This document shows, piece by piece, positions 12,873 through 39,901 of a stretch of 40,035 nt of DNA; position 1 is the first letter of the stretch; each line of letters begins with the position of its first letter. The stretch spans positions 1 through 40,035 of the forward strand of contig JAGORQ010000008.1 in the NCBI GenBank assembly GCA_018062705.1, read 5' to 3'. The notes beneath the pieces were generated by a model, which was given only the letters and a program-made list of their open reading frames with translations, had not been told where the DNA came from and ran no database searches. This DNA is from Candidatus Shapirobacteria bacterium (GTDB lineage Bacteria; Patescibacteriota; Microgenomatia; UBA12405). Both the position numbers and the translations under genes were made by a program.

Positions 12873-14666
12873 TTACCTCAAAACAGCATACAAACGACGG
12901 TGGCCAGCGGAAGCAGATTCTTCTTTGGTGATTTCAAAAACACCTAACACTCCAGTATGTTCTACGTGTGGGCCGGTGCAAACTTCACGGGAGAAAAAGG
13001 AATCACCAGGACCTACCGTATACATAGTGACAGTTTCCGGATATTTGGCGCCAAAAAATGCCAGAGCGCCTTTTTTTTGAGCTTCGGTAAAGAGGAGTGT
13101 GTCGCAAGTGATAGTTAAATCTTTTTTAATTTGCTCATTGACCATATTTTCAACTTGTTTGATATGTTCGGGTGTTAATTTTTCCGGATGGGAAAAATCA
13201 AAGCGTAAACGCTCTGAGGTGATGTTGGAGCCGGTTTGATGGACATGATCACCCAAAATTTTGCGTAACGAAGCATGGAGTAAATGGGTGGCGGTGTGAT
13301 ATTTAGTAATAATTTCGCTATGATCAGCTAGACCAGATTTGAATTTACCTGCGGAGAGGGTTTGAGACAATTTGGAGTGTTCTTCGCGGAATTTATTAAA
13401 TTCAGCCTTATCGAGGGACAAATTGTTTTTGGATAATTCTTCTTGAATCATTTCCACAGGAAAACCAAAACTTTGATACAAATCAAAGGCTTCCTTACCC
13501 GTCACATTGTGATTACGAGTTATTAGTTTGTTGATTTCTGATAATCCCTTGTCAAGTGATTTACGGAAACGGTTTTCTTCGGTGTCAATAATAGTTAAGA
13601 TTTTTTCTGAGTTTAAATTTAATTCCGGATATACACCAGCATAGTTAATTTGATTATCTAAAACTGATTGGGCGATTATTTTAGTAAAGTTGGTATTAAT
13701 GTTGAGTAGTTTTCCTTGACGAATGGCACGGCGAATTAGTCGACGGAGAACATAGCCAGCTTCTTTGTTACTAGGTTCTACACCGTCAGCAATTATAAAA
13801 ACGGCGGAGCGTACATGATCAGCGACTATTCGCATTGATTTTTGGGCTCCAGCCAGTGGCGCCCCTACGGTGGTGTATTTTAAATTTGAAAGTTCTTCTA
13901 TTTTTTGAATAATTGGCAGAAAAATTGGTGACAAATAGTTGTCGGATAAGCCATTGAGGACGGCTGTAGTCCGTTCAACCCCCATGCCGGTATCAACGTT
14001 TGGTTTGGGTAATAATTCAAAAACTCCGGCAGAGTTTTTATTGTATTGCATAAAAACATCGTTCCAAATTTCCACCCAGCGGGAATCATCGGGATCAAAT
14101 TTTTGAGGCGGAGCATCGGTACCTATCCAATAAAACATTTCTGAGTCAGGACCGCAGGGACCGGTAACTCCGGCTGGCCCCCACCAATTGTTTTCTTTGG
14201 GAAGAAAGGCGATTCTATCTTCGGAAACTCCCTGTTTTAGCCATAAATCACGACTATCAGTATCTTTGGGGGCATTTTCGTCACCCAAAAAGCAAGTTAT
14301 GGCCAAATATTTAGGATCTATTCCTAAGTATTTTTTATCAGTCAAAAACTGATAACTCATAGGAATCATTTCTGATTTGAAGTAATCACCTAGTGACCAA
14401 TTACCGAGCATTTCAAAAAAAGTGTGATGAGTAGTATCACCTACTTCATCAATATCGCCGGTCCGAACGCATTTTTGGACATCGACAATTCGAGTGCCTT
14501 GAGGGTGTGGTTGTCCCAAAAGAAACGGCACTAGTGGGTGCATGCCAGCTGAGATAAACAAGGTGGTCGGATCGTTTTCAGGGACCAGCCGGGCACTAGG
14601 AATTTCCAGATGTTGGTGGTCCAAAAAAAACTTGATGTAGAGGTCTTTTAATTCTCGGGCGGTCAT
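12873..14666 (-). CDS. alaS: Alanyl-tRNA synthetase, compact form without C-Ala domain
   Basis: 597 aa (E. coli 876). Class II catalytic core with ARLVPENDPTTLFISAGM..LVPFLLG, GNWSLGDYF and DTGMGVERTTAVL; tRNA-recognition middle domain; editing domain with H457-x3-H461 (HTATH) and C563-TGP-H567. The protein stops right after the editing domain (AGHRRLYAVLR), so the C-terminal oligomerisation/C-Ala domain is absent. Start: ATG at 14666 directly after a TATAAT box, so probably leaderless. The frame is clean to the stop, so this is a real compact form and not a frameshift. Confidence 0.95.
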   Translation of the reverse strand: MTARELKDLYIKFFLDHQHLEIPSARLVPENDPTTLFISAGMHPLVPFLLGQPHPQGTRIVDVQKCVRTGDIDEVGDTTHHTFFEMLGNWSLGDYFKSEMIPMSYQFLTDKKYLGIDPKYLAITCFLGDENAPKDTDSRDLWLKQGVSEDRIAFLPKENNWWGPAGVTGPCGPDSEMFYWIGTDAPPQKFDPDDSRWVEIWNDVFMQYNKNSAGVFELLPKPNVDTGMGVERTTAVLNGLSDNYLSPIFLPIIQKIEELSNLKYTTVGAPLAGAQKSMRIVADHVRSAVFIIADGVEPSNKEAGYVLRRLIRRAIRQGKLLNINTNFTKIIAQSVLDNQINYAGVYPELNLNSEKILTIIDTEENRFRKSLDKGLSEINKLITRNHNVTGKEAFDLYQSFGFPVEMIQEELSKNNLSLDKAEFNKFREEHSKLSQTLSAGKFKSGLADHSEIITKYHTATHLLHASLRKILGDHVHQTGSNITSERLRFDFSHPEKLTPEHIKQVENMVNEQIKKDLTITCDTLLFTEAQKKGALAFFGAKYPETVTMYTVGPGDSFFSREVCTGPHVEHTGVLGVFEITKEESASAGHRRLYAVLR

Positions 14667-23643: not shown

Positions 23644-23997
23644 TTATCCAGCACAAACTCCATTCGGAACTTCTTTTTCGGGAATGGCCAGCACGGGAGT
23701 AATGTCGTTACTGTAGCCAATGTCAAAAAACATGCCTTCAGACATAATGCCAAACATTTCTTTGGGTGGCAGATTGACTACAAAAAGCGCTTGTTTGCCT
23801 TCAATTTCCCTTGGGTTTTGACGTTCTTTTTTGAGACCGACCACAATCACCCGTTTGAATTCGCCAAAATCGACAGTGGTTTTGACAAGTTTGTCGGACT
23901 TTTCAATGTCTTCTACTTTTTCAATCGTACCAACTCGAATGTCGAGTTTGTCGAGATCGGGAAAGGCGATGTTAGGTTTTATGGGGATTATTTTCAT
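23644..23997 (-). CDS. Stand-alone tRNA-binding (EMAPII/OB) domain protein
   Basis: 117 aa from the ATG at 23997, which overlaps the upstream stop (ATGA); a frame extension to 24018 lies inside that upstream gene. OB-fold tRNA-binding domain of the MetRS C-terminal/Trbp111 type: FPDLDKLDIRVGTIEKVEDIEKSDKL, TVDFGE-x(3)-V-x-VGL, LFVVNLPPKEMFGIMSEGM. Such proteins bind the outer corner of tRNA in a structure-specific way. It is the second tRNA-binding-domain protein in this operon; csaA is the first gene. Confidence 0.88.
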   Translation of the reverse strand: MKIIPIKPNIAFPDLDKLDIRVGTIEKVEDIEKSDKLVKTTVDFGEFKRVIVVGLKKERQNPREIEGKQALFVVNLPPKEMFGIMSEGMFFDIGYSNDITPVLAIPEKEVPNGVCAG

Positions 23998-24416
23998 TTG
24001 GTTTTTTTGGGGCCGCACTCACCAGGTGCGTTGGTTTTAATTTTAGTTAAATAACCTTTGGCTTTGAGTGCTGTAAACTTGGCAAAAGCCAATGATGCTT
24101 TTACTTGATAGACATAAAACTTTCTTTTTTCATCATAAACCTTGGCGTTAAGTTTTTGGGCTTGCTCCTCGAGCTTGAAGGCATCGGCTTTTATTTGATA
24201 AATTTTTTTCCAAATAGGATCTTGGTTGTCGTCAGTCAGGCTTTCAAGTCTATATGCTTCCTCTTTAAGTTTGAGAGCATCGGCAAATAAACTATTTACT
24301 TTTGATCTAGTGGTGTAAGCGTCATAGCGAAACTTGTCGGCCTTAGCTTCCCATTTTTCAGCAATAATTTTGTATTTATACGATTCTTGATCGATTTGTT
24401 CGTCAATTCTTAACAT
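23994..24416 (-). CDS. Coiled-coil protein of unknown function
   Basis: 140 aa, almost wholly helical with Lys/Glu/Ala heptad-like repeats (DEQIDQESYKYKIIAEKWEAKADKF..., ADALKLKEEAYRL, IKADAFKLEEQAQKLNAKVYDEKRK). A lone Cys in the tail (GECGPKKTK). No enzyme motif. It lies between proS (11 bases) and the tRNA-binding-domain gene (4-base overlap), so it belongs to the same message and may scaffold tRNA-related proteins (inference). Confidence 0.75.
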   Translation of the reverse strand: MLRIDEQIDQESYKYKIIAEKWEAKADKFRYDAYTTRSKVNSLFADALKLKEEAYRLESLTDDNQDPIWKKIYQIKADAFKLEEQAQKLNAKVYDEKRKFYVYQVKASLAFAKFTALKAKGYLTKIKTNAPGECGPKKTK

Positions 24417-24427
24417 AATATTTTGAA

Positions 24428-25849
24428 TTAATAACTAAGTCCAAATAACCAACGGTGGGTGGAGGGTTGGCCACAGCGGACACACTTACCCGATTCTTCA
24501 GGTGCGTCGAGAGGTAGACAGCGAGTAGTAGCCTTAGTTTCGGTCTTGATCTTCCCTTCACACTCAGAATCTTCACACCAATGGGCACTGATAAAACCTC
24601 GAGTAGTTTCCATGACTTTTTTAAACTCATCATAATTCTCAACTTTGAAGGTATTGTCCTCGGTAAACTTTTTGTGTTTGGCAAGTAGATTAGCTTGGAT
24701 ATCCCTTAACAAATCTTCAATCTTCAAACTACAATCTTCAATATTAATTGATATTTTTTCACTGGTGTCGCGACGAGTGATTATCACCTTGTTTTCGGCC
24801 ACATCACGATCCCCTATTTCAATTCTTAGCGGGATACCCTTGAGTTCCCACTTATTGAATTTAAATCCGGCACTTTCGCCCTCGCGAGTATCAAGTTCTA
24901 CCCGATAAGTTTTTTTGAGTTCAGTATAAATTTCTTGAGCTTTGATAGAAGCTGTCTCGTGGGCCGGAATTGGGACAATTACAATTTGAGTCGGGGCGAC
25001 CATTGGGGGTAAAACTAGTCCGTTTTCATCACCGTGGGCCATGATTAGACCGCCGATGGAACGAGTAGAGAAACCCCAGGAGTTTTGATGTGGATAAAGT
25101 TTTTGACCATCCTTGCCTTGAACTGACCAATCAAAAGATTTGGAAAAATTTTGCGCCAGGTCGTGACTGGTGCACGATTGGAGAGCTTTGCCGTTCGGCA
25201 TCAGACTTTCAAAAGTGTAACTATCACCGGCACCGGCAAATTTTTCCGAATTACTTTTGCGACCTTTAATTCCATAAACAGACAATAAATCAACGTAGGT
25301 TTTTTCGTACATATCGAGAGCCCAGTTAACCATTTCCATGTTTTCCTCGTGAGTAGCATGGGCACAATGACCTTCCTGCCACAAAAATTCAGAGGTGCGT
25401 AAAAACAAGTAGGTGCGTTTTTCCCAACGAACCACGTTACACCATTGATTTATGAGAATTGGCAAGTCGCGCCAGGAACTAGTCCACTTGCGATACATCT
25501 CATACATGATAGTTTCTGAAGTAGGACGAACTGCCAATTTTTCGGACAATTCTTGACCGCCGCCGACTGTAACAACAGCTAGTTCTGGAGAGAAGCCAGC
25601 CACATGATTTTTTTCTTTTTCCAAAAAGTGCATCGGGATAAACAAAGGAAAGTAGGCATTTTTGACGCCTTTTTCCTTGATCATTTTGTCCATAAATTGC
25701 TGGATATTTTCCCAAATGGCGTAGCCATAGGGGCGAATTACCATACAACCCTTGACTGGGGCATAATCGGCGAGTTCGGATTGGAGAACAATATCATTGA
25801 ACCACTCAGATAAATTTGTTTTGAAATCAGCAAGTTGTTTTTTGGCCAT
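24428..25849 (-). CDS. proS: Prolyl-tRNA synthetase, archaeal/eukaryotic-like type
   Basis: 473 aa. Class II synthetase charging tRNA-Pro. Motif 1 region VKGCMVIRPYGYAIWENIQ, FPLFIP, motif 2 region PTSETIMYEMYRKWTSSWRDLP with RTSEFLWQEGH, motif 3 region GLIMAHGDENGLVLPP, anticodon-binding domain, and a C-terminal zinc-type domain (HWCEDSEC...GKCVRCGQPS) ending in a Tyr. It has no INS editing domain. This is the ProS type 3 layout. Second gene of an operon headed by csaA (gap 9 bases), under the T-box-like leader at 26198-26341. Confidence 0.95.
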   Translation of the reverse strand: MAKKQLADFKTNLSEWFNDIVLQSELADYAPVKGCMVIRPYGYAIWENIQQFMDKMIKEKGVKNAYFPLFIPMHFLEKEKNHVAGFSPELAVVTVGGGQELSEKLAVRPTSETIMYEMYRKWTSSWRDLPILINQWCNVVRWEKRTYLFLRTSEFLWQEGHCAHATHEENMEMVNWALDMYEKTYVDLLSVYGIKGRKSNSEKFAGAGDSYTFESLMPNGKALQSCTSHDLAQNFSKSFDWSVQGKDGQKLYPHQNSWGFSTRSIGGLIMAHGDENGLVLPPMVAPTQIVIVPIPAHETASIKAQEIYTELKKTYRVELDTREGESAGFKFNKWELKGIPLRIEIGDRDVAENKVIITRRDTSEKISINIEDCSLKIEDLLRDIQANLLAKHKKFTEDNTFKVENYDEFKKVMETTRGFISAHWCEDSECEGKIKTETKATTRCLPLDAPEESGKCVRCGQPSTHRWLFGLSY

Positions 25850-25858
25850 AGCTATATT

Positions 25859-26194
25859 TTAGAATAATTTTCCTCCTACAATCGCTTTTGTTTTATCAGG
25901 TGTGATTAAAATGCAATCACCGTTCTCATCAGGAACACCTAAAGTTAAAGACTCTGACATAAAAGGTCCAATTTGACGGACAGGAAAATTGACCACACCA
26001 AGAACTAATTTATCTACTAATTCTTCTTTTTTATAATATTTAACAATTTGAACACTAGAATGTTTAATGCCTATTTCTGGGCCAAAATCGATTGTTAGTT
26101 TGTAGGCGGGTTTTTTGGCTTCAGGAAAATCTTCAACTAAAATTACTTTACCGACACGTATGTCGAGCTTGACGAAATCGTCATATGTAGCCAT
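25859..26194 (-). CDS. csaA: CsaA-like tRNA-binding protein
   Basis: 111 aa from the ATG at 26194, chosen because GGAGG (26204-26200) lies 5 bases upstream; the earlier ATG at 26212 is upstream of that Shine-Dalgarno. EMAPII-type OB fold: YDDFVKLDIRVGKVILVEDFPEAKKPAYKL, IDFGPEIGIKHSSVQIVKYY, VVNFPVRQIGPFMSESLTLG. This is the standard CsaA length and sequence pattern. CsaA is described as a dimeric tRNA-binding or chaperone-like protein. It is the first gene of the csaA-proS operon, and its Shine-Dalgarno is the one hidden by the riboswitch hairpin. Confidence 0.93.
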   Translation of the reverse strand: MATYDDFVKLDIRVGKVILVEDFPEAKKPAYKLTIDFGPEIGIKHSSVQIVKYYKKEELVDKLVLGVVNFPVRQIGPFMSESLTLGVPDENGDCILITPDKTKAIVGGKLF

Positions 26195-26197
26195 ATT

Positions 26198-26341
26198 GAC
26201 CTCCAAAAACATTAATATGTTTTAGGGGTCTCGAAGTATCGGGACGGTACCACCCTAATTAAACTCTGGTGAATTTATACAGTTCAGTTCTGGCTAGCCT
26301 CATCGGTAGCACCTCGACGGCGGGAAACCGCTTCATTGGTT
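26198..26341 (-). promoter_or_regulatory. T-box riboswitch, translational type, upstream of csaA-proS
   Basis: Minus-strand leader of ~147 nt. It has the conserved T-box AGGGTGGTACCG (26256-26245). Antisequestrator: helix UUAGGG/CCCUAA (26258-26253 with 26227-26222), seven-base bulge UGGUACC (26252-26246), helix GUCCCGA/UCGAGAC (26245-26239 with 26234-26228, one C.A mismatch). Competing sequestrator: 26230-26217 pairs with 26212-26198, covering the GGAGG Shine-Dalgarno of csaA. The two share 26230-26222, so they exclude each other. UGGU would pair with an ACCA tRNA end. The specifier region upstream is short and I could not fold a classical Stem I; proline codons CCC (26324-26322) and CCA (26293-26291) are candidates. 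Confidence 0.85.
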
Positions 26342-26347
26342 TGGATG

Positions 26348-26356
26348 ATTATAACA
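26348..26356 (-). promoter_or_regulatory. Extended -10 promoter of the T-box-csaA-proS operon
   Basis: TGTTATAAT on the minus strand (TATAAT at 26353-26348); start of transcription expected near 26341, directly before the T-box leader. Confidence 0.75.
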
Positions 26357-26626: not shown

Positions 26627-26655
26627 GAGAGACGTGCCGTTGGCGCGTCTCTACC
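26627..26655 (-). repeat. REP-like GTAG palindrome upstream of the RAYT gene
   Basis: Read on the minus strand, GGTAG precedes AGACG, inner stem GCC, loop AAC, GGC, then an unpaired A and CGTCTC. It is in inverted orientation to the two copies inside the RAYT gene. The inner base pair is G-C here, versus C-G and T-A in the other copies. Confidence 0.85.
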
Positions 26656-26678: not shown

Positions 26679-27281
26679 ATGGTTTTGTTTGTCGATAAAT
26701 ATTTGGTTGACAGCTCAAGATTGGCTGGTTGGAATTATTCTTCAAAAGGTATATATTTTGTAACATTTTGCACCTATAGACACAATAAGCATTTTGGAGA
26801 AATAGTTGAAGGGAAAATGAAGTTAAATCAGATGGGAGCAATTGTTGATGAAGAAATAAAAAGAGTTTTCAGTTCAAGAATAAATTTTAAATTGCATAAA
26901 TATGTAGTTATGCCCAATCATGTTCATATATTATTTGAAATTTTGTTTTCGGTAGAGACGCCCCAACGGGACGTCTCAAATATAAACATAATTGATAATT
27001 TCAGACGTCCGGAAATTGCCACGCACAAATGGCAATCTAATTCCGTTGGATCAATAATCAATCAAATAAAATCAATTTCAACAAAAAGAATTAATAAAAT
27101 CCCTAAAATGTTTGGCTGGCAACCAAGATTTTACGATGAGGTAATTAGAAGTAACAATGAATTTTGGTCGAGATATAAATATATTGAAAATAATCCTAAA
27201 AATTGGGGTAAAGATCAATATAACGAGCTGGTAGAGACGCTCCAACGGAACGTCTCAAAAGAATATACAGATTTATCCTAA
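26679..27281 (+). CDS. REP-associated tyrosine transposase (Y1/HUH, RAYT)
   Basis: 200 aa. Single-strand HUH transposase of the TnpA_REP type: family start RLAGWNYSSKGIYFVTFCTYR, HUH motif H81-V-H83 (MPNHVHILFEI), catalytic Tyr152 (GWQPRFYDEVIR), and the tail YIENNPKNW. These proteins nick GTAG-footed REP hairpins. Palindromes of that type occur just upstream (26627-26655) and twice inside the gene, in frame: 26951-26978 (peptide VETPQRDVS) and 27230-27257 (peptide VETLQRNVS). The second forms most of the C-terminus after the conserved core. The gene is intact, plus strand, among minus-strand genes, and has its own promoter. Confidence 0.93.
   Translation: MVLFVDKYLVDSSRLAGWNYSSKGIYFVTFCTYRHNKHFGEIVEGKMKLNQMGAIVDEEIKRVFSSRINFKLHKYVVMPNHVHILFEILFSVETPQRDVSNINIIDNFRRPEIATHKWQSNSVGSIINQIKSISTKRINKIPKMFGWQPRFYDEVIRSNNEFWSRYKYIENNPKNWGKDQYNELVETLQRNVSKEYTDLS
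26951..26978 (+). repeat. REP-like palindrome inside the RAYT gene, copy 1
   Basis: GGTAG foot, AGACG/CGTCT outer stem, C.A mismatch, inner stem CCC/GGG, loop AAC. Encodes VETPQRDVS in frame. Confidence 0.9.
27230..27257 (+). repeat. REP-like palindrome inside the RAYT gene, copy 2
   Basis: Same as copy 1 except for two changes that restore a base pair: inner stem TCC/GGA instead of CCC/GGG. Encodes VETLQRNVS in frame. Confidence 0.9.
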
Positions 27282-34960: not shown

Positions 34961-36391
34961 TTAAACCTTATAGGCTATTATAACATCATTTAATTTAAAG
35001 TCAACATAAGGTCTAAAGGTCATGCCACATTCACTACCAGACTTAATTTTGTCGAGAATATTTTTGGCTTGATGGATGCCTTCGACAATGGTGTCTTTGA
35101 TAATTTTATCGTCGCGTTTCAGGTGGATTCGATCACCCTTGGTGATTTCACCTTTGGTGACCTGGATACCAGCAATTCGAACCTTATCAATTTTGAACTC
35201 GGCTATAATTTTTCCCTCACCTAAGGTAGTTTCCTCGATGGTTGGATCGAGAAGCTTGAGAACTTGGTTTTGGATATTTTCAATGATTTCGTAGATTATT
35301 TTGGATTCAAAAACTTTGACTTTTTGATTGTCAGCCAGATTCTTGATAAATCGGGGGATTGAGACATTAAAGGCATAAATCTGGGCTTTGGCCGATTCGG
35401 CCAAAAAGACATCATTATCAGTCACCGGACCAACACCAGCCGAGACAACTACTACATCATCACTAAAGCTATTTTTAAGGGCTTCGAGTGTGCCTTCAAC
35501 ATCAGCCTTGATGACTACGGGCAATTTTACGGTTCCTGGATTCCCGCCTACGCGGGAATGACTAACATTATGAGACGCCAGACCTGGCGTCTCTACAAGG
35601 TGATCCCGAACAACAGAGCCGACCGAAGGCGTTGATACAAAACCCAGTATCTCTACTGTAGCCGAAGGTAGGGCAAATTTGACGTTTTCTTTGTCGCTAT
35701 TGACCAAGGCCTTAATTTTACAGGAAATATTCTCAGCAAAAACTGTATCACCGAGGTGGAGAGTGCCTTTTTTGACAATGACTGAGGCGACAGGGCCACG
35801 ACTATTGTCGAGGCGAGATTCGATAACAATGGCTTCAAGCGGAGCGTCTGGTTCATTTTTGAGCTCAAGGACATCGGCGTTAAGTAATATATTCTCAAGT
35901 AAATCGTCTATACCGGCGCCGGTTTTGGCAGAAACAGGGATAACGGCCACCTGACCACCATACTCCTCGGGTGTGAGTTCAAGTTCGACCAGTTGACCTT
36001 TGATTTTTTCAGGAGAGGCGCCCTCAAGATCAATTTTGTTCATAGCCACAATGACTGGGACTCCAGACAGCTTGATATCTTTGACAACTTCCTTGGTTTG
36101 AGCCATGACACCATCAACAGCCGAAATGACCAGAACGGCAATATCGGTGGTGTTGGCACCGCGAGAACGCATGTTGGCAAAAGCGGCATGGCCTGGGGTG
36201 TCTATAAAAGTAATTGTGCCGGTTTTACCGGATTTTAGCTTAACTGTAGTTTGGTAAGAAGAGATATGTTGAGTAATACCGCCAGCTTCTTTCTTGGCAA
36301 TATTGGCATTACGGATTTTATCCAAAAGCGAGGTTTTACCATGGTCAATATGACCCATGACAGCAACAATAGGGGGACGGAATGAGTTCAT
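34961..36391 (-). CDS. infB: Translation initiation factor IF-2, short form with repeat-derived insert
   Basis: 476 aa, lacking the long N-terminal region of E. coli IF-2 (890 aa). GTPase motifs: GHIDHGKT (13-20), DTPGHAAF (64-71), NKID (118-121). Domain II, then a linker, then the IF2 core ([15 protein letters not shown]) and the C-terminal fMet-tRNA-binding domain ([14 protein letters not shown]...GSECGM). Residues ~265-288 ([11 protein letters not shown]...HSRVGGNPG) are encoded by two dispersed palindromic repeats inserted in frame in the linker. Upstream is nusA; downstream, 2 bases away, the DHH-like gene. Confidence 0.96.
35538..35596. repeat. Composite palindromic repeat inside infB
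   Basis: ATTCCCGC-CTAC-GCGGGAAT (35540-35559), then TGACTAACATTA, then GAGACGCCA-GACC-TGGCGTCTC followed by TAC (35572-35596), so GTAG is the foot on the minus strand. Same two-part order as at 27375-27430. In frame with infB. Confidence 0.9.
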
Positions 36392-36564: not shown

Positions 36565-36594
36565 GAGAGACGTCCCGGTGGGGGCGTCTCTACC
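36565..36594 (-). repeat. REP-like GTAG palindrome between nusA and infB
   Basis: On the minus strand GGTAG, AGACG, C.A mismatch, inner CCC/GGG, loop CACC, CGTCT. Same subfamily as the copies at the RAYT gene. Confidence 0.85.
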
Positions 36595-39873: not shown

Positions 39874-39901
39874 GTAGAGACGTTGCGCGCAACGTCTCTA
39901 C
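39874..39901. repeat. Perfect 28-bp REP-like palindrome between dnaK and the 117-aa gene
   Basis: GTAGAGACGTTGCG and its exact reverse complement, with GTAG at both ends. It could also serve as a dnaK terminator in part, but no T-run follows. Confidence 0.9.

Follow-up and report, generated by a model that had tools for sequence, protein, structure and literature searches.

The window analysed here, a 40,035-nt stretch of a Candidatus Shapirobacteria contig, carries a T-box leader in front of csaA and proS, on the minus strand at about 26345-26198. We consider it very probable that this leader, a T-box with an ultrashort Stem I, controls the translation of csaA-proS according to the charging state of tRNA-Pro; no wet-lab evidence is available. 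A translational T-box at this position of a CPR genome was proposed in the initial annotation, and each of its parts found support here, the translational mode being inferred from the sequence and not demonstrated. The downstream gene pair, which had been read as coding for a tRNA-binding protein and a prolyl-tRNA synthetase, matched both families above their cut-offs. The product of csaA (25859-26194, minus strand, ATG at 26194) exceeds those of NCBIfam NF007495 and TIGR02222 and contains PF01588, while proS (24428-25849, minus strand) codes for a prolyl-tRNA synthetase (ProRS) of the archaeal/eukaryal type (TIGR00408 proS_fam_I, 559.9 bits for a cut-off of 437).

No match was found in the window at the Rfam gathering threshold, and routine annotation would therefore miss the T-box. 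A permissive search of 901 bases against all Rfam families aligned the leader over its full length with RF00230, with 24.2 bits (E = 0.0035; E = 0.001 in its own genome), though below the curated gathering score of 93 bits. Since the RF00230 consensus has a long Stem I, whereas the alignment of the window leader contains Stem I in a shortened form, the low score limits detection and does not define the functional family. Weak, chance-level matches to Lacto-rpoB, RF_site6, K10_TLS and mir-3 near the leader were discarded.

T-box identity was settled by covariation in 11 related Pro leaders despite the sub-threshold score. In the alignment of these leaders, in which the helices scored were P1, Stem I and the two of the antisequestrator, 94.6% of the cells were paired and changes on both sides occurred in 13 of 17 pairs, with examples in every scored helix. 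The covariation score reached 0.615 compared to 0.225 in shuffles, none out of 500 being as high, and partner structures that had been slid out of register gave at most 0.135. A lack of covariation in related leaders would have refuted the initial proposal; what we observed was strong. RNAalifold, when applied to the Pro leaders without any supplied structure, recovered these helices and, in addition, a short Stem II. The folding energy of the whole leader (z = −2.3) is on its own no strong evidence. The helices, the specifier, the kink-turn, the antisequestrator and the agreement between codon and gene are thus features established by comparison of leader sequences.

Upstream of the leader lies an extended −10 promoter element, TG-T-TATAAT (26353-26348), identified by consensus match only. 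All leader coordinates are given on the minus strand. From the position of this element, transcription is predicted to start at about 26343-26340, directly at the base of Stem I. As the TATAAT ends at 26348, the transcript would begin right at Stem I, leaving no longer Stem I hidden upstream; a −10-like hexamer is also found just upstream of 38 of the 43 ultrashort leaders of the class. The upstream part had been judged too short for a canonical Stem I. A long Stem I with distal loops is indeed absent, but the upstream part is no useless remnant: a complete ultrashort Stem I of 30 nt with P1, kink-turn and apical specifier loop, supported by covariation, extends from 26340 to 26311 (ACC-AAU-GA-A-GCGG-UUUCCCG-CCGU-C-GA-GGU). 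Its covarying P1 helix, ACC/GGU, pairs 26340-26338 with 26313-26311; pair 7-37 is C-G in the window and in the related leader L040, and G-C in others. The kink-turn, made of the bulge AAU and tandem G.A/A.G pairs (GA at 26334-26333 and GA at 26315-26314), sits between two covarying helices, the upper one being GCGG/CCGU (26331-26328 with 26320-26317). The 7-nt apical specifier loop UUUCCCG (26327-26321), conserved in the 11 Pro leaders, presents the proline codon CCC (26324-26322) followed by a purine, G 26321, as in known T-boxes.

The Pro leaders have in common a Stem I of about 30 nt that consists of a three-pair P1, a kink-turn with a three-base bulge plus tandem G.A, a helix of four to six pairs and an apical loop. 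The loop consensus is [UA][UA]UCC[CU][GA] (n = 11), mostly U[UA]UCC[CU]G, and according to RNAalifold a U.G pair closes the loop to five bases in 10 of the 11. The specifier CCC or CCU is kept in front of proS, csaA-proS and proB-proS alike, thereby providing the conserved proline codon whose absence would have argued against the T-box. Three further hairpins come after Stem I, namely Stem II, a small one resembling IIA/B, and Stem III. Stem II is a short plain hairpin, GCUACC-GAUGA-GG(C)UAGC (26310-26293), with changes on both sides in the RNAalifold pairs 39-58 to 44-52. Neither reading of the window sequence nor RNAalifold on the Pro leaders revealed an S-turn in Stem II or an AGUA/GAA internal loop; about half of the remaining leaders have both AGUA and GAA. 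The IIA/B-like hairpin CAG-AACUGAA-CUG (26292-26280) was recognised by reading and corresponds to CGG/CCG in relatives, while Stem III, UAAAUUC-ACCA-GAGUUUA (26277-26260), rests on reading alone, its conservation being too low for covariation.

The elements of the expression platform were all located where they had been placed, including UUAGGG, UGGUACC, CCCUAA, the sequestrator and GGAGG. The antisequestrator (26258-26222), supported by the RF00230 alignment and by covariation of its helices, comprises a lower helix UUAGGG/CCCUAA (26258-26253 with 26227-26222), the 7-nt T-box bulge UGGUACC (26252-26246), formed by the T-box sequence AGGGUGGUACCG, and an upper helix in which GUC/GAC (26245-26243 with 26230-26228) is followed by CGA/UCG above a C.A mismatch. 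Folding predicts an alternative hairpin, GACCCC-U-AAAACAU-AUUA-AUGUUUU-U-GGAGGUC (26230-26198), which covers the Shine-Dalgarno (SD) sequence GGAGG (26204-26200), located 5 nt before the csaA start codon, and ends 3 nt before that codon. The competition between the two structures claimed in the initial annotation is supported by folding energies and by the strand 26230-26222, which is common to both and renders them mutually exclusive. In predictions on the platform together with 12 coding bases, the sequestered form comes to −20.3 kcal/mol compared to −15.5 kcal/mol for the antisequestrator form. Being the more stable, it would keep the genes OFF without help, and expression would be ON if something stabilised the antisequestrator. 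The anti-SD sequence is intact in the 3′ end of the 16S rRNA of this genome (CACCTCCTTT; GGATCACCTCCTTT).

The anticodons of the genome's tRNA-Pro are GGG, UGG and CGG, and all three tRNAs, each of which was read, carry A73, the base complementary to the U in UGGU. Any other discriminator base would have contradicted the bulge; yet A73 is common, making this agreement a weak test. Anticodon GGG reads the codon CCC without wobble. A second, divergent tRNA-Pro(GGG)-like gene, also with A73, was noticed on a 3.4-kb contig (L144, G000:C4). We propose that uncharged tRNA-Pro(GGG) would make two contacts, the anticodon pairing with the CCC that the apical loop of Stem I presents, and the 3′ end ACCA with UGGU of the T-box bulge. 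The bound tRNA would hold the antisequestrator, GGAGG would remain free, and CsaA and ProRS would be made. Charged tRNA-Pro, being unable to engage the bulge, would allow the stabler hairpin 26230-26198 to form and the ribosome-binding site to be hidden. In this scheme tRNA binding, the sensing of charging, the direction of switching and a translational rather than transcriptional output are all inferences.

Control by the window leader is most likely translational, judging from the lack of a terminator, the hairpin that covers the SD sequence, the intact anti-SD sequence and the SD-hiding hairpins of the same design found in two glyS leaders (L154 and L158). Against this explanation stand the csaA SD sequestrator, which was seen in the window leader only, the platform, which alone is not unusually stable (z = −1.3), and the missing S-turn of Stem II. 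Moreover, since most genes of the window have no SD sequence and are apparently leaderless, SD-based control would be an exception here. In several of these genes, such as those at 14666 and 38581 (minus strand), a hexamer resembling TATAAT lies 5-7 nt ahead of the start codon, as would be expected of leaderless transcripts, and the GGAGG of the csaA leader departs from this pattern.

A tRNA-Pro T-box with transcriptional output, in which hairpin 26230-26198 or pausing of the RNA polymerase stops transcription unless tRNA is bound, appears improbable to us. Such an output is the rule among the ultrashort leaders of the class, of which 33 out of 43 end in a terminator, as does the closely related leader L036, and the 3′ arm of the hairpin does contain a run of five U. 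That run, however, belongs to the hairpin itself, and what comes after it is GGAGGUC rather than U; a stricter scan and a terminator tool detected no terminator on the leader strand of the window; and the position of the hairpin over the SD sequence, so close to the start codon, points elsewhere. We give even less credit to a relic, that is, a leader in which the aptamer is recognisable and the switch matters little, proS being driven mainly by a promoter of its own, the TAAAAT hexamer found just before its start. Genes of this lineage often look leaderless, and most proS genes of Shapirobacteria have no T-box in front, which implies that the T-box is dispensable; but in the window the kink-turn, the specifier, the bulge and every helix have remained intact, and compensatory changes are seen. 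Hardly any room is left for a protein-binding leader that merely resembles a T-box, for instance one serving CsaA autoregulation. CsaA, as a tRNA-binding protein, could bind a structured leader, whereas leaders built in the same way, but carrying different specifiers, precede unrelated, codon-matching genes for ArgH, SerB-SerRS, TrpE, GlyRS and TyrRS, mostly without csaA.

Translational control by tRNA-Pro remains our reading of the window leader; its nearest relative combines the aptamer with another platform. In Ca. Shapirobacteria NC_groundwater_416 (L036), the nearest named relative, whose ProRS is 82% identical, the same aptamer directly precedes proS and is followed by the terminator TAGCTCGTC-N5-GACGGGCTA-TTTTTG, so that sister species share the aptamer and differ in the platform. 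This leader and the proS leaders L149, L157, L174, L192 and L199 share the ultrashort Stem I with the loop UUUCCCG or UAUCCCG and have a Rho-independent terminator where the window has its SD sequestrator. Neither an obvious terminator nor an SD sequence was seen in L037, L039 and L040. The genome of the window contains a second T-box (C10; RF00230, 47.2 bits, E = 1e-9), with a short Stem I, the loop ACAUAAUACAC bearing the Tyr codon UAC, and a terminator. Downstream are genes for an M20-type hydrolase and tyrosyl-tRNA synthetase (tyrS), and the tRNA-Tyr of this genome has A73.

We then surveyed the class, taken as Microgenomatia because the members near the window are Ca. Shapirobacteria and L036 and L127 share the proS locus. 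RF00230 matched 152 of 281 genomes of the class at E≤0.01 (17 above cut-off) and 110 of 380 genomes of the phylum at E≤1e-6 (13 above cut-off). Among 14 control genomes, only five had matches, namely Bacillus, Lactococcus, Corynebacterium and two Deinococcota. Each genome of the seven named proS loci gave at least one match. As the model used has a long Stem I, T-boxes of the phylum are undercounted; leaders with a long Stem I (L006-L035) and short ones both occur in the class. Contamination by Firmicutes DNA was considered and rejected, given that the leaders precede these genomes' own genes and have an architecture of their own; leaders are also present in single-contig genomes (G033, G086 and G220).

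Specificity was assessed in 60 shorter RF00230 matches with downstream genes, in which Stem I was placed by a covariance model built from the Pro leaders and blind to the genes. Among held-out ultrashort leaders with a clean apical loop, 29 of 33 loops contained a codon that is followed by a purine and specifies the downstream gene's amino acid, compared to a mean of 5.6 and a maximum of 16 in 50,000 permutations of the genes. The amino acids matched were Pro, Arg, Ile, Asp, Asn, Tyr, Val, Thr, Trp and Gly, with ArgH, ArgRS and an acetyltransferase behind Arg leaders, TrpE behind Trp leaders, and GlyRS, GlyA and PurU behind Gly leaders. The four exceptions were Ser leaders of SerB, SerA and SerRS operons, in which the loop has UCC followed by C. 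A stricter rule based on the last codon, applied to the same alignment, gave 21 of 57 compared to 4.2 by chance. Because the gene labels were assigned from the sequence and only a sample was checked against families, the test is not fully blind. Terminators lie at or just after the 3′ strand of the antiterminator in 49 of 64 sampled leaders.

Several features of individual leaders were also recorded. Tandem T-boxes occur in L168 (1436-1568 and 1601-1718, minus strand) and L185 (17-143 and 201-321, plus strand), before glyS and glyA, all four loops containing GGC (Gly). In L193 a ValRS-like gene lies behind the loop CCAACCA, which reads Thr ACC rather than Val, possibly reflecting a misread gene or a recent change of specificity. 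The Asp leaders L162, L164 and L167 have a UGGU bulge, for which A73 is expected, and L178 has UGGC, for which G73 is expected.

Of the known systems, class III T-boxes (Nocardia farcinica, Mycobacterium ileS; PMC10482949, PMC7583486) share with the window leader a short Stem I with a kink-turn and no distal elbow-binding module, an apical-loop specifier followed by a purine, an antisequestrator with a UGGN bulge, and SD sequestration, which in the window leader is inferred from the sequence. The short Stem I is met by the 30 nt from P1 to P1 with a promoter-like hexamer just upstream, the penta- or hexanucleotide apical loop by the 7-nt loop or the 5-nt loop closed by U.G, and the kink-turn at the base of Stem I by the AAU bulge and GA/GA. 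The window leader differs in its phylum, in its specifier for proline instead of isoleucine, and in that close relatives of its aptamer drive terminators. The Stem II S-turn, which class III T-boxes need (PMC10651847), is not met in the window or the Pro leaders. The leader behaves like a T-box in every defining feature that sequence can check, and it is close to class III but no clean member, having no S-turn and no established pseudoknot. With class I T-boxes (Bacillus subtilis tyrS type, RF00230) it shares the T-box sequence, the antiterminator fold, the kink-turn and aminoacyl-tRNA synthetase targets, but it has no long Stem I with distal loops, and its score of 24 bits falls short of the cut-off of 93; leaders of the class I type with a long Stem I also occur in its bacterial class (L006-L035).

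According to reviews, transcriptional T-boxes as a rule require a long Stem I that includes an elbow-binding module, ultrashort ones being translational and mostly actinobacterial (PMC7583486, PMC10482949), and the long Stem I is expected to serve fast tRNA capture (PMC7583486). The ultrashort Patescibacteria T-boxes with terminators contradict this division. In the T-box database, only Actinobacteria were searched with the translational model (PMC7778990). The initial annotation had supposed that a T-box in a CPR-like genome may be new. We found no published report of T-boxes in CPR, Patescibacteria, Microgenomates or Saccharibacteria in the open-licence PMC literature, reports elsewhere not being excluded; the leader does not stand alone and belongs to a phylum-wide set that mostly uses termination. 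We lean towards the view that the ultrasmall Patescibacteria hold a large number of diverse T-boxes that have so far gone undescribed. In these, a minimal Stem I of 30 nt would suffice to decode many different tRNAs and to control both termination and translation, even though the elbow-binding module is missing and, in the Pro group, the Stem II S-turn too. On this view, the window leader would represent the translational version of a proline aptamer whose platform changes from one sister species to the next. T-boxes have been described as chiefly a system of Firmicutes, with Actinobacteria, Chloroflexi, Deinococcus and a few more groups as outliers; no decision was reached between an ancient origin and an invention by Firmicutes (PMC2494555). 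That question is reopened by how widely they occur in Patescibacteria. Patescibacteria depend on hosts for amino acids. The broad occurrence of T-boxes also provides them with a concrete regulatory circuit, regulation in these bacteria being largely unknown (PMC11665869).

Two further observations concern the surroundings of proS. Proteins with a PF01588 tRNA-binding domain flank it on both sides (23644-24018 and 25859-26194, minus strand), in several families (L165, L188, L047 and L050) a Pro T-box is followed by csaA and then proS, and in L201 an Arg T-box is followed by a csaA-like gene and then argS. These pairings suggest that small csaA-like tRNA-binding proteins assist particular synthetases. 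Palindromes of the form GAGACG-N10-12-CGTCTC are present in six copies in the window (26629-26651, 26955-26977, 27234-27256, 35572-35593, 36567-36590 and 39877-39898) compared to 0.01 expected. Three copies fall within or next to a gene for a Y1-type transposase (26679-27281, plus strand, PF01797), and the same kind of palindrome was seen near proS in L038, L039, L040 and L080. Together, the palindromes of the window and the transposase look like a REP/RAYT element system.
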